Shown here piece after piece: positions 1-23,456 of a stretch of 48,902 bases of DNA. The translations under genes were made by a program, and so were the position numbers. The number at the start of each line of letters is the position of its first letter. The first letter of the stretch is position 1. Source of the stretch: Chloroflexota bacterium (lineage in GTDB: Bacteria; Chloroflexota; UBA11872; VXOZ01). Location of the stretch: positions 1 to 48,902 of the forward strand of contig JAPOQA010000047.1 in NCBI GenBank assembly GCA_026710945.1, written 5' to 3'. The notes under the pieces are model-generated. The model made no database searches and was not told the origin of the DNA. It was given only the letters and a program-made list of their open reading frames with translations.

Positions 1-252
1 AATTCGTTGACAGAATTCTCTCCCAAATTGGCAGTGTTGACAGATCATGTCATTCCGAGCGGAGCGAGGAATCTAGGGCCCATGCAACGTGTCGCCCAAT
101 AGGCTCAACATCTTAGATTCCTCTCTTCGCTGCGCTCCGTTCGGAATGACATGTATTCAGGCAAGAGCAGAGTTTTACTCCCATGAGTCTTCTATCAAAT
201 CTGTCAACGAGTTAACTGACTCTTACAATTCCCGCGAAAGCGGGAATCTATC
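1..252. repeat. Intergenic inverted-repeat element (family A), cut by window edge
   Basis: Positions 46-75 and 114-153 are inverted copies of each other (CATTCCGAGCGGAGCGAGGA and its imperfect complement). They are flanked by AATTCGTTGACAGA at 1-14 and its near complement at about 199-213. Nearly the same block recurs at 22.6-23.5 kb. A further short palindrome, CCCGCGAAAGCGGG, lies at 231-244. No credible protein is encoded here; open frames across the block are repeat-derived. The arrangement resembles a MITE or a composite palindromic repeat. The left end probably continues outside the window. Confidence 0.75.
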
Positions 253-351
253 CGATCTTCTCCGGTCGCACATGCCGTCGAGTGCGGGTCTCCCAGCTTG
301 CGACTCTCGGCTTCTCCTCCGGCTTAGATGACCTACGCAATGAGAGTGCTT

Positions 352-783
352 TTAACCCGGCACTACATCGAGCTCAGTGAGAATTGTCGGGCCGCCCTCA
401 AGCGTGCGGTGCACCGGGCAGCGCTCGGAGATTTGCAGGAGCCGCTTGGCCTGGGCTTCGTCAATTGCGCCGGAGACGACGATGTAGCGCCGGATGAGGT
501 CGATTTTGGAACTGCCTTCTTGCTCGCACTCCGCGCAGTCGCGGGCGTGTACGCGTTCGTGGCTGAGTTCCACCCGCACTGAACCCAAGTCCCACGCTTT
601 CCTGTCGGCATACAGCCGCAGCGTCATGGCCGTTCAGGTGCCGAGCGCGGCCAGCAGGAGTTCATAGGGATTGGGACCGAGATTCTCGCCCTCCGGCGGC
701 GGCTCGTCCGCGACGAGTGCGTGTGAGTCGGTGACCACGACGTGCTGGAGCCGTTCGTGGCTCTTTACCGTGACTGTCTGCAT
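352..783 (-). CDS. OsmC-family redox protein, probable selenoprotein (in-frame TGA at 634-636 = Sec50)
   Basis: Read through one TGA, this frame gives 143 residues that look like a complete OsmC/Ohr-type thiol-dependent peroxidase or redox protein. The ATG at 783 is preceded by GGAGG eight bases upstream. The N-terminal half ends LGPNPYELLLAALGT, then TGA, then TAMTLRLYADRK. In this family the residue at the TGA is the invariant reactive cysteine (ALGxCTAMTLR). The second conserved cysteine is present at C122 in RCPVHRTL. The frame is open on both sides of the TGA over the whole family length, and a hairpin begins 12 nt after it, as expected of a bacterial SECIS. I infer that UGA is read as selenocysteine, giving a U50-C122 selenenylsulfide pair that reduces organic hydroperoxides. 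The alternative is a point-nonsense pseudogene, less likely given the exact codon hit. Automated callers will report only a truncated 91-residue C-terminal piece (627-352). No selA, selB, selC or selD gene lies in this window. Confidence 0.8.
602..621 (-). promoter_or_regulatory. SECIS-like hairpin within the OsmC selenoprotein gene
   Basis: On the minus strand, starting 12 nt after the in-frame UGA, CUG-CGGC pairs with GCCG-A-CAG around a five-base loop, UGUAU. This is a 7-bp stem with one bulged A. The loop starts 20 nt after the UGA and has G as its second base. This fits the general bacterial SECIS pattern: apical loop roughly 16-37 nt after UGA, with a G among its first two loop bases. 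Folding was done by eye, so pairing energy and SelB binding are not shown. Confidence 0.6.
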
Positions 784-870
784 CTAATTGCCTCCATTCA
801 GCATAGAAGGATCCTCAACGAAACATCTAGATACCTTGCCTGAAAAGGTATGCATCTTGCTCACCAAGCA

Positions 871-894
871 GCGGGGGACAAGCCCCCGCGCTAC
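871..894. repeat. 24-bp palindromic dispersed repeat (family C), copy 1
   Basis: GCGGGGGACAAGCCCCCGCG followed by CTAC is an almost perfect hairpin (GCGGGGG / CCCCCGC). The same 24 bases occur in reverse complement at 26060-26083. It sits in the 194-base gap between the OsmC gene and the DNA glycosylase gene, where nothing else is recognisable. Confidence 0.7.
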
Positions 895-977
895 TATCTG
901 CATCGGAATCCCTCCGGGTCTCCGAGAAGTGCCCCGCGGCGTATGGTTGCTAGAGTCTGGTATGGAGTCTCGTTGGC

Positions 978-2246
978 TTACATTGCAGCCATGAGTTTTG
1001 TGCCAAACTCCGTGGGGTCGCTGCGTTCGATTACAAGGTCCGTCGCGTCGTGAAAGCGCATGAAGTCGCGCATGGCGCGGGCGACGGAGGCCGCCAGCCG
1101 GTCGCTCGGCTTCACGCCGGATTCAAGGTGAAGCGCCTTCAGCCGGAGCAGGCCGGTCTTTCGTTCCAGCTTTGGATCAAAGCGGCCGACCAGGCGTCTC
1201 TTGTTCAAGATTGGCAGACAGAAGTATCCCCACTTCCGCTCGGGCGCAGGCACATAGCACTCCAACTTCTGATGGAAATTCCACATGGCGCGGTCACGGC
1301 CTCTGGCCCAGAAGAGACTATCGAAGGGATTGAGAAACGTCGTCCGGCGGACGCGAAGGGAGCCATCTGCCGCGGCATCCAGCAGCGGCAGGTTTTCGCG
1401 ATGCACGAGGAGATCGTGCGTTCCACCATCTGCGAGCTGGGCCTGAACAGTGGCGAACGTGCCATCTTCCATCAGCCCTCTCACCAGGGGCCGAGCCTCG
1501 CTGGCCTTGAGCTTGAAGTAGTTACCGACTTGCTCCGGCGTGCAGACCCCAAATGCCCGCATGGAAATCTCCAGCAAGTGCTTTAGCGCCTTTTCCTCCG
1601 TTGGCTCTTCTCTATTGACCCAGGACGGCAGCACACGATCACGAATGTCGTAAATACGCTGGAAGTTTACGCGGTTGGCGATTGCGAGTTCGCCAATGTT
1701 GTAGAGATGTTCCAGTGAGACCTTTGCATCGTCCCAGTTCCACCATGTTCCCGGTGCGCGCTTCTCGGTGCGAAAGTCTGCCGCGCGGGAGCCCCCGCTT
1801 TCCCGCACCGCTGCGTAGACATCTTTCACAAATTGCTGTTTCTCAGCATTGGCCAGCCAATTCCGGTACGACTTGTTATCGCCCTCCCGGTAGCTGCGCA
1901 TGCGCGGCAGCAAATACGGGTAGAGGGTCAAGGGGATGATGCAGGCGGCGTGCGCCCAGTACTCGAACAGTCTCCGATTGTTGGTGGGCGATGCATTGCC
2001 GTCGTCAAAGAGGAGTCTATCCAGAAGCGAGGTGTCGTAGCTGCCCAGCCTGCTCCAAAGTGTGACGTAGTGCGCGCGGTTGACGACCTGGAGCGTATCG
2101 ATCTGCACCCAGCCCACGCGCTCAATCGCCGCGTAGACATCCTCGATGCCGGGTCGTGAGATCGCGCCCAGCGACCTCCCCAGACCTTGGGCATGCAATG
2201 CCAACGTCAGAACGGCATACAGTGGATAGGGCGACCGCGCGCTCAT
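978..2246 (-). CDS. YcaQ/AlkX-like winged-helix DNA glycosylase (DUF1006 family)
   Basis: The 422-residue protein matches the winged-helix crosslink-repair glycosylase family (HTH_42/DUF1006), whose members unhook interstrand crosslinks and remove bulky alkylpurines. The N-terminal stretch holds the family motif VQIDTLQVV; Q48 and D50 form the QxD catalytic motif typical of the YcaQ-like branch rather than the QxQ of AlkZ. Further family features are the RLFEYWAHAACIIPL segment (about residues 92-106) and the C-terminal LNPFDSLFWARGRDR segment with its acidic, basic-rich tail. The ATG overlaps the stop of the upstream dehydratase gene as ATGA, implying translational coupling. Length is normal for the family. 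No toxin biosynthesis gene is nearby, so a general repair role is more likely than self-resistance. Confidence 0.85.
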   Translation of the reverse strand: MSARSPYPLYAVLTLALHAQGLGRSLGAISRPGIEDVYAAIERVGWVQIDTLQVVNRAHYVTLWSRLGSYDTSLLDRLLFDDGNASPTNNRRLFEYWAHAACIIPLTLYPYLLPRMRSYREGDNKSYRNWLANAEKQQFVKDVYAAVRESGGSRAADFRTEKRAPGTWWNWDDAKVSLEHLYNIGELAIANRVNFQRIYDIRDRVLPSWVNREEPTEEKALKHLLEISMRAFGVCTPEQVGNYFKLKASEARPLVRGLMEDGTFATVQAQLADGGTHDLLVHRENLPLLDAAADGSLRVRRTTFLNPFDSLFWARGRDRAMWNFHQKLECYVPAPERKWGYFCLPILNKRRLVGRFDPKLERKTGLLRLKALHLESGVKPSDRLAASVARAMRDFMRFHDATDLVIERSDPTEFGTKLMAAM

Positions 2247-4003
2247 GGGCGTGGGGTTGATTCTGCCTGTGGGCGTGCTGTGACACTTGCCGGCAAACCG
2301 TTTGTGGAGGTAACAGACTCGCGCCTATAGAGCGAAAGCACGCCGGACTCGTGCGCAAGCGCGGGCGCCTGCCAGCGGCTGCGGCGCTCCGAAAGGATCT
2401 GCTCAACTTCCTCCGGCGACCGCCGCTCACCTTTTACGCCCACAATTGCCAACGAGCGCGCGGGCACGTCAATTTCGATAAGGTCGTCCTTTTCCACGAG
2501 AGCAAGCGGGCCGCCCAGAGCGGCTTCCGGCATCACATGGCCGATGGCCGGGCCTTTGGCGGCGCCGGAATAGCGGCCGTCGGTGATGATGGCGGTGCTT
2601 GCTTCCAGATCGGGACGCGCTGAGATGACGGTAGTACAGAAGTACATTTCCGGCATGCCGGAGGCACGCAACCCCTCGTACCGGATGACCATCACGTCGC
2701 CGGGTTTGATCTCGTCGTTTGTGACGCCTTCAATCGCATCCTCTTCGCGGTCGTAGGGCACGGCACGTCCCGTCATCTGGTGCGTGCGCGGGTCGGCGGC
2801 GACGTGCTTCATCACCGCTCCCTCCGGCGCCAGGTTGCCGGTAAGCACGGCAATCGTGCCGCCCGATTTGTAGGGCTTCTCAATCGGATAGAGCACTTCT
2901 TCCCTGCGGACGCCGTGGTTGTCCAGATATCCTGCGATCTCCTCGAACCAGCCGGACTCTGCCAGGTCGTCCAGATTCTCGCCGATGGACTTACCGGTCA
3001 CCGTAAGGCAGTCGAGGTGCAGGAATTCCTTGACCTCATTCATCAGGGCCGGCACGCCGCCGCAGTACCAGATGTACTCCACCGGATGGGTGCCGTAGGT
3101 CTTCACGTCGGTCAGCACCGGCACTTTTCTGCCAATCTCGTCAAACTGCTGCGGACGGATCTCGATGCCGACCTCCGCGGCGATGGCAGGCAGGTGGATG
3201 AGAAGGTTGGTTGAGCCTCCGACGGCGGCGTGGAGCACAAGCGCGTTATGGAACGCCTCCGGCGTCAGAATGTCGCGGGGCCGGATATTTTTTTCCAGCA
3301 ATGTCATCACCTGCTCGCCGGCGTCGCGGGCCATGCGGGTGAGCTCGCGGAGCGCGGCCGGTATGAGCGCGCTGCCCGGCAATGCGAGGCCCAGCGCCTC
3401 GGCGATCACTTGATTGCTGCTGGCAGTGCCCATGAACTGGCACGCGCCGGGCGTGGGACAGGCGTGCTTCTGCTTGGCGATCAGCTCTTCCTCGGTGATC
3501 TGCCCTTTGTCGCGCATGATGCCGAGCGGGTACATGAGCTCCGACGACATGTTGCAAGGGCCGTTCGTCTGGGTGCCGCCGGGAATGTGGATGGCCGGGA
3601 GGTTCACGCGCGCCATGGCCATCAGGTGGCCGGGCACAGCCTTGTCGGCAGTGGAAATGCACACCATGGCGTCATGGGGATGCGCCAGGGCGTGGATCTC
3701 CGTCATGTAGCTGATAATGTCCCGCGAGGGCAGGCTATAGCTCATGCCGGCATGGGCTTGCGCCACGCCGTCGCAGATGTCGGTGCAGTAAAACTCGGCG
3801 GGCTTGCCGCCGCGCGTGTAGACGCCGAACTTGGCCTGTTCAACCAGGTCGCCGAGATGCACGCTGGACGGGTGGGAACAGCCGGTCACACTCTCCACCA
3901 GCACCTGCGGCTTGCCCAAATCGTCAACTGTCCAGTCCATGCCCATGCGCAGGGCATCGCCTTGGCGGTTGAGGTCTCGTAGCTTTTGGCTTCGCAGCGC
4001 CAT
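2243..4003 (-). CDS. IlvD/Edd-family dehydratase (dihydroxy-acid or sugar-acid dehydratase-like)
   Basis: The 586-residue protein belongs to the Fe-S and Mg-dependent IlvD/Edd dehydratases, which dehydrate 2,3-dihydroxy acids or aldonic acids to 2-keto acids. Recognisable pieces are [14 protein letters not shown] (C42), [20 protein letters not shown] (Mg ligand D78), [12 protein letters not shown] (K121, expected carbamylated Mg ligand), [12 protein letters not shown], and the C-terminal [11 protein letters not shown] with the catalytic Ser. Oddly, the Cys normally before Asp-Lys (CDK), one of three cluster ligands, is Ala here, although C115 lies four residues earlier. The start at 4003 is chosen because GGGAGG sits 8 bases upstream; an in-frame start 90 bases further up lacks such a site. 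The protein is clearly outside canonical IlvD, so the substrate (branched-chain intermediate or sugar acid) is open. It is co-transcribed with the downstream glycosylase gene. Confidence 0.85.
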
Positions 4004-22644: not shown

Positions 22645-23456
22645 TTCCAGTAAGTGTTGAGTATTTCGCTGACAGAATCCTCTCCCCAATTGTCAGTGTT
22701 GACAGATCATGTCATTCCGAGCGCAGCGAGTAATCTGGAACCCTGTGACACGAGATTCTTCGGCGCAGAATTCATTCTGAGCCTTTCGGCAGGCTCAAGA
22801 CAGGCTTGTCGAAGAACTCCCCAGAATGACAGGCATAGGGAGCCGGGTTGCGCCTGGGTTAGCAGAATGCCTCTTCCCGTGAGAGGTCCTGAGTTCAAAG
22901 CTTCTCGCAGCGCACTATTCTGCTCCCGATGATTGTAAGTGTTGAGCAATTCGTTGACAGAATTCGCATTACCGAAGAGAGCGCTGCAAGGCCTTGTGAT
23001 TCCTGTATGTGTTGAGTAATTCGCTGATAAAAGCTTCTACTCACTGAACTGTGTCGAACGTACATGTCATTCCGAGCGAAGCGAGGAATCTAGGGTCCAT
23101 GCTTGACAAAGTACACTGGCTTCAGCACTCTAGATTCCTCACTTCGCTGCGCTCCGTTCGGAATGACATGCATGCAGGCAAGCGCAGAGTTTTGCTCCCG
23201 TGATTCTTCTATCAAATCTGTCAGCGAATTACCTGACTCTTACAATTCCGAGCGTAGCGTCGAACCCTGTTTGAGGAATCCAGGGTCCCTGCTCAACGCA
23301 CTTTGACGGCTTTTGCACTCTAGATTCCGCGCTAAGAGCGACACTCCGTTCGGAATGACACGTATTCATGCCGTTCGGAATGACATTTATGCAGGCGAGC
23401 GCAGAGTTTCGCTACAAGGATTCTTCCACAAAGTCTGTCAACGAATTACTCAATAC
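22645..23456. mobile_element. Cluster of family A MITE-like repeats (about three nested or tandem copies)
   Basis: Left ends resembling GTTGAGTAATTCGTTGACAG occur near 22657, 22940 and 23011. Opposite-facing ends lie near 23213-23226 and 23434-23454. Thus 23011-23030 and 23434-23454 form an approximately 20-bp terminal inverted repeat. Inside, CATGTCATTCCGAGCGAAGC (23063-23082) and its near complement (23130-23170) repeat the inner palindrome seen at 1-252; partial copies lie at 22708-22737 and 23240-23365. No transposase or protein gene is present in this 1-kb gap between recN and hsp20. Open frames here are repeat-derived. Confidence 0.7.
22772..22830. repeat. Family B palindromic repeat, copy 3
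   Basis: Contains ATTCTGAGCC, GGCAGGCTCAAGACAGGC and TTGTCGAAG with a closing CAGAATGAC. This is a degenerate relative of the CTTCGACAGGCTCAG repeats at 10989, 11371 and 47011. It is nested within the family A cluster. Confidence 0.55.

Follow-up and report, generated by a model that had tools for sequence, protein, structure and literature searches.

A predicted selenoprotein on a second branch of OsmC proteins in Chloroflexota

OsmC selenoproteins and a second OsmC branch

The OsmC and Ohr proteins assayed so far reduce organic hydroperoxides, a reaction in which a first cysteine residue attacks the peroxide and a second one resolves. OsmC-like selenoproteins with a UxxT motif have been reported from the Sargasso Sea in 2005 (PMC1088965) and from GOS in 2008 (PMC2398784), and they are listed in reviews of 2022 (PMC9312934) and 2026 (PMC13188914). 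The class is thus a known one (PMC1088965; PMC2398784; PMC13188914), as had been suspected in the initial annotation of the locus described here. That OsmC selenoproteins are common in Chloroflexota had not been foreseen; among 400 genomes of this phylum, 25 of the 26 matches above the cut-off of the curated NCBI model NF041052 (OsmC_like_Se) have a TGA.

The gene considered here is located on contig 47 of a Chloroflexota MAG, an assembly of 3.52 Mb with a completeness of 98%, whose nearest relatives are Chloroflexota MAGs. The window, that is, the whole stretch of DNA analysed, corresponds to this contig and spans 48,902 nucleotides. This gene is predicted to encode a further OsmC selenoprotein; its kind is known, but it belongs to a second branch of OsmC, a position that the initial annotation had not foreseen. 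The placement is based on its UTAMT motif, on its score against NF041052 (40.2 bits, below the cut-off of 95) and on three further Sec members of its subfamily that were scored, which also fall below this cut-off with 39-46 bits. In the phylogenetic tree, a branch with 100/99 support splits the subfamily from the NF041052 family. Both have an OsmC domain with Sec at the first redox Cys, and NF041052 is widespread in the same phylum. NF041052 proteins contain the motif ULLTQ (FULLTQ) instead of UTAMT, in which U-T-A-M does not match UxxT, and their second Cys lies within ACHAAQ, CYTMQ or similar motifs instead of CPVHRTL.

Closer to the window protein are the Cys-containing OsmC proteins of the CTAMTLRMYADRK...CPVHRTL type, including those annotated as bifunctional alpha/beta hydrolase/OsmC, which belong to the same subfamily with ~38-57% identity. 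They possess both redox positions and often the same DCxxC motif, but have Cys in place of Sec and are in some cases part of longer fused proteins. Among PDB entries, the closest in sequence is 9wo1 (E 1.6e-35), a protein of 400 aa named "Osmotically inducible protein C", which is matched in its C-terminal part and also has Cys at the Sec50 site. With the OsmC/Ohr peroxiredoxins (TIGR03562, TIGR03561), the fold and the two redox residues are in common, although Sec would replace the first Cys and the score against TIGR03562 is 18 bits for a cut-off of 85.8. An AlphaFold model of the window protein (mean pLDDT 86) was matched by Foldseek to OsmC/Ohr structures with E-values down to 6e-9. In the open-licence literature, this branch was not found among published or catalogued selenoproteins.

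The gene, its in-frame TGA and the downstream hairpin

The features of the locus are as follows:

352-783, minus strand, including the stop codon: gene for a predicted OsmC selenoprotein of 143 aa that carries Sec50 and Cys122 (PF02566 match; frame kept in six species; dN/dS ~0.1 before as well as after the TGA)
634-636, minus strand: in-frame TGA, codon 50, predicted Sec (invariant-Cys column; TGA in eight distinct relatives including the window gene, TGC or TGT in the others)
602-621, minus strand: bSECIS-like hairpin CUGCGGC[UGUAU]GCCGaCAG (loop 19 nt past the TGA; shape kept with altered stem pairs; low synonymous divergence)
418-420, minus strand: TGC codon of Cys122 in RCPVHRTL, predicted resolving cysteine (invariant column)
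791-795, minus strand: GGAGG ribosome-binding site, 7 nt 5' of the ATG (from the sequence)
978-2246, minus strand: AlkZ-like DNA glycosylase, upstream neighbour, context only (PF06224, E 1.8e-54)

Read from the ATG (783-781) to the TAA (354-352), the read-through protein matches the Pfam family OsmC (PF02566) with an E-value of 5.9e-20 and 72 bits over profile positions 1-97 of 100, the gathering score being 27.5 bits, and no other PF02566 match with an E-value of 1e-6 or lower occurs in the genome. In the subfamily alignment, the TGA of codon 50 is located on one of 12 invariant columns, that of C50, the first redox cysteine, and both redox positions, Sec50 and Cys122, are invariant when Sec is counted as Cys. 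The ORF that starts downstream of the TGA, at Met53, would encode 91 aa. The initial annotation had thus correctly delineated an OsmC frame broken only by the TGA at the position of the reactive cysteine; the partner cysteine in RCPVHRTL (C122), the GGAGG at 795-791, the hairpin after the TGA and the 91-residue product expected from gene callers were likewise recovered.

Two further observations can be made on this region. An extra DCxxC motif (C83, C86; HARDCAECE, residues 83-86, ~526-537 on the minus strand) is shared by many members of the subfamily and absent from the Sec proteins of Bacterium HR23, G290 and G326 and from the Cys proteins of Bacteroidota. The contig itself starts in a MITE-like repeat (window 1-213), whose ends are inverted over 17 nt and which contains a palindrome around CATTCCGAGCGGAGCGAGGAATCTA. 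This repeat is also found at window 22665-22736, 23063-23230 and 23371-23447; 45 full or partial matches occur genome-wide, several of them at contig ends.

The OsmC gene is present in all six species of the genus, codon 50 being TGA in five of them and TGC in one (G038, locus L038), and no further stop or frameshift was found in this gene in any of the six. Where contigs reach, the gene order consists of a SAM-dependent methyltransferase, a gene of dihydroxy-acid-dehydratase type, the AlkZ-like glycosylase and OsmC. Across the six species, dN/dS amounts to 0.07 before the TGA and 0.10 after it, and the latter value indicates that the part past the TGA is translated. More broadly, the subfamily is found in 20 of the 400 Chloroflexota genomes. 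Outside the genus, TGA occurs in G290, in G326 and, from another collection, in Bacterium HR23, while the remaining members have Cys; no other stops were observed. Plasmid-borne relatives are all <60% identical, some being annotated as alpha/beta hydrolase-OsmC, and the phage and viral collections contained no Sec relative, the matches consisting of two distant Ohr sequences from phages and a partial contig of viral origin.

Bacterial SECIS elements have been modeled as a 4-16 bp stem with a loop of 3-9 nt, a G in the first two loop positions and a distance of 16-37 nt from the UGA (PMC13188914). The hairpin at 602-621, which consists of a 7-bp stem with one bulge and a UGUAU loop after a 12-nt spacer from the TGA, falls within these bounds, and its shape is retained in all eight Sec genes compared. 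Its folding energy is unremarkable (z -1.0, with 7 of 150 synonymous shuffles folding equally well), and it is therefore conservation, and not folding strength, that constitutes the evidence for this element. When synonymous divergence is followed along the gene in windows of 13 codons, it is lowest around the TGA and the hairpin (pS 0.08-0.16 versus a median of 0.47). Furthermore, a stem of seven or more pairs closed by a UGUAY loop at nt 19-20 can form in 8/8 Sec genes versus 1/28 Cys homologues, these counts ignoring shared ancestry. In HR23 and G290 the stem is CUCCUCA/UGAGGAG and in G326 it is CUCCUGC/GCA-c-GGAG, so that different bases, encoding partly different amino acids, form the same hairpin as in the window gene. 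In the Cys-containing sister L038, an AGG to UGG change is present and the lower stem pairs are broken. An Rfam search of positions 1-3000 returned nothing relevant.

The one Cys homologue with such a bSECIS-like structure is the OsmC gene L068 (TGT codon; G211:C31:51487-51873), with an 8-bp stem and a UGUAC loop at nt 19. The genome concerned carries selA and tRNA-Sec, and this hairpin may be left over from an ancestral gene with Sec or have arisen by chance.

Decoding machinery and competing readings of the TGA

The initial annotation had implied a Sec-decoding organism, and the complete set of genes searched for was indeed identified in the host genome: a tRNA-Sec with the anticodon TCA (RF01852), selA (559 bits), a full-length selB (623 aa, 360 bits) and selD (380 bits). 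The latter has its own in-frame TGA in the motif SCAGUAGK, at the position of an active-site Sec, and is a second selenoprotein gene of the same genome (G000:C41:80333-81262, minus strand, in L172). Another "selB" match, on C61, corresponds to a 400-aa EF-Tu-like protein and is thus not SelB. In a metagenome-type bin, the gene and the Sec machinery could in principle derive from different organisms; the same combination is found in the sister genomes. Collectively, there is little doubt that 783-352 on the minus strand represents a genuine selenoprotein gene, which would encode an OsmC fold with Sec at the position of the peroxidatic cysteine. Coding, conservation, the hairpin and the decoding machinery all point to Sec insertion at the UGA 634-636.

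Because TGA differs by a single base from both TGC and TGT, and because TGC is found in one sister species, a nonsense mutation giving rise to a pseudogene or a sequencing error at a TGC or TGT codon has to be considered. The same TGA, however, recurs in separate assemblies for five members of the genus, as well as in three genomes from further afield, the codon being otherwise a plain Cys codon, and the gene shows no other lesion, is under purifying selection past the TGA (dN/dS ~0.1) and coexists with the full Sec machinery. A chance mutation, already judged unlikely in the initial annotation, and a sequencing error are ruled out by this recurrence and by the selection acting downstream, leaving them a vanishingly small probability. 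Reading of TGA as another amino acid throughout the genome, by a change of the code to Trp or Gly, would account for the open frame and for nothing more. Since TGA terminates 8 of the 29 long ORFs of the window taken as genes, it is not reassigned genome-wide; in addition, tRNA-Sec, SelA, SelB and SelD are present and the codon aligns with Cys, not with Trp or Gly, so that such recoding is effectively excluded.

It could also be envisioned that translation stops at the TGA and that a separate, Sec-free protein of 91 aa starts at Met53, the ATG of codon 53 being found in the genus. In the AlphaFold model, two such products would sever the OsmC fold and its catalytic centre inside the helix formed by residues 39-61. 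Moreover, codon 50 is a Cys codon in one genus member and in most relatives, Met53 is replaced by Ile in HR23, G290 and G326, and both halves evolve under purifying selection as one frame. On these grounds this possibility was rejected and is regarded as very improbable.

Proposed function and exchange of cysteine and selenocysteine

Granted that the window protein is a selenoprotein, it would probably act as a peroxidase, in which Sec50 is expected to be peroxidatic and Cys122 resolving. According to this mechanism, the SelA, SelB, tRNA-Sec and SelD of the host would insert Sec at UGA 634-636 under the direction of the stem-loop located just downstream. Sec50 would then attack an organic or hydrogen peroxide to form a selenenic acid, which Cys122 would resolve into a selenenyl-sulfide; regeneration of the enzyme would finally depend on a thiol reductant of the cell. 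Alternatively, a true selenoprotein might catalyze another thiol/selenol redox reaction, for example on disulfides or persulfides, or act with a partner hydrolase. Such a role has to be considered since the closest relative of solved structure forms the C-terminal portion of a protein of 400 aa, and since alpha/beta hydrolase-OsmC annotations occur among the plasmid relatives; the additional cysteines C83 and C86, found in many members, are also consistent with it. Against it stand the hydroperoxide reductase activity of the OsmC/Ohr proteins assayed and the invariance of both redox residues, and it is considered rather unlikely, the peroxidase function of the window protein being preferred.

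Reversion of Sec to Cys without loss of the Sec system is of a kind already described (PMC1794560). The L038 gene, which encodes Cys, nests within the Sec clade of the genus (support 95/89), and its genome retains selA and tRNA-Sec; a Sec-to-Cys reversion with the Sec system kept would thus be the simplest reading. The Sec genes of HR23, G290 and G326 are located apart from the genus in the tree, and one common origin of Sec is not rejected (AU p 0.26).

Other OsmC genes with a TGA were observed in genomes of the same taxonomic class. L166 (G023:C20) and L167 (G020:C8) belong to another OsmC branch, in which the first cysteine is replaced by TGA (AAAGULTGT). For L166, PF02566 gives a match, whereas no NCBIfam model scores above its cut-off. 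L168 (G026:C11:181825-182109, minus strand) is an OsmC ORF (PF02566, 39.7 bits with TGA read as Cys) in which the TGA is located at the second conserved cysteine (DRUPLYRAV versus RCPVHRTL) while the first cysteine is kept, and which possibly has Sec at the resolving position. It can be tentatively proposed that Sec has been recruited to OsmC several separate times in Chloroflexota, namely in the window genus, in HR23/G290/G326, in NF041052 and in G020/G023, and in G026 even at the resolving cysteine.

The window gene adds a predicted selenoprotein, backed by comparative evidence, on an OsmC branch outside the curated NCBI model. Since this model fails to flag the branch, annotation pipelines likely truncate the gene or miss its catalytic residue. 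In other respects the finding is in line with the existing picture of bacterial selenoproteins and overturns nothing. Within a single genus, the occurrence of Sec (the window gene and L036) versus Cys (L038), with Sec machinery in the Cys species, provides a clean system to understand why Sec is kept or lost. If Sec has indeed been recruited repeatedly, the OsmC proteins of this phylum would represent a natural experiment in the exchange of Cys and Sec.
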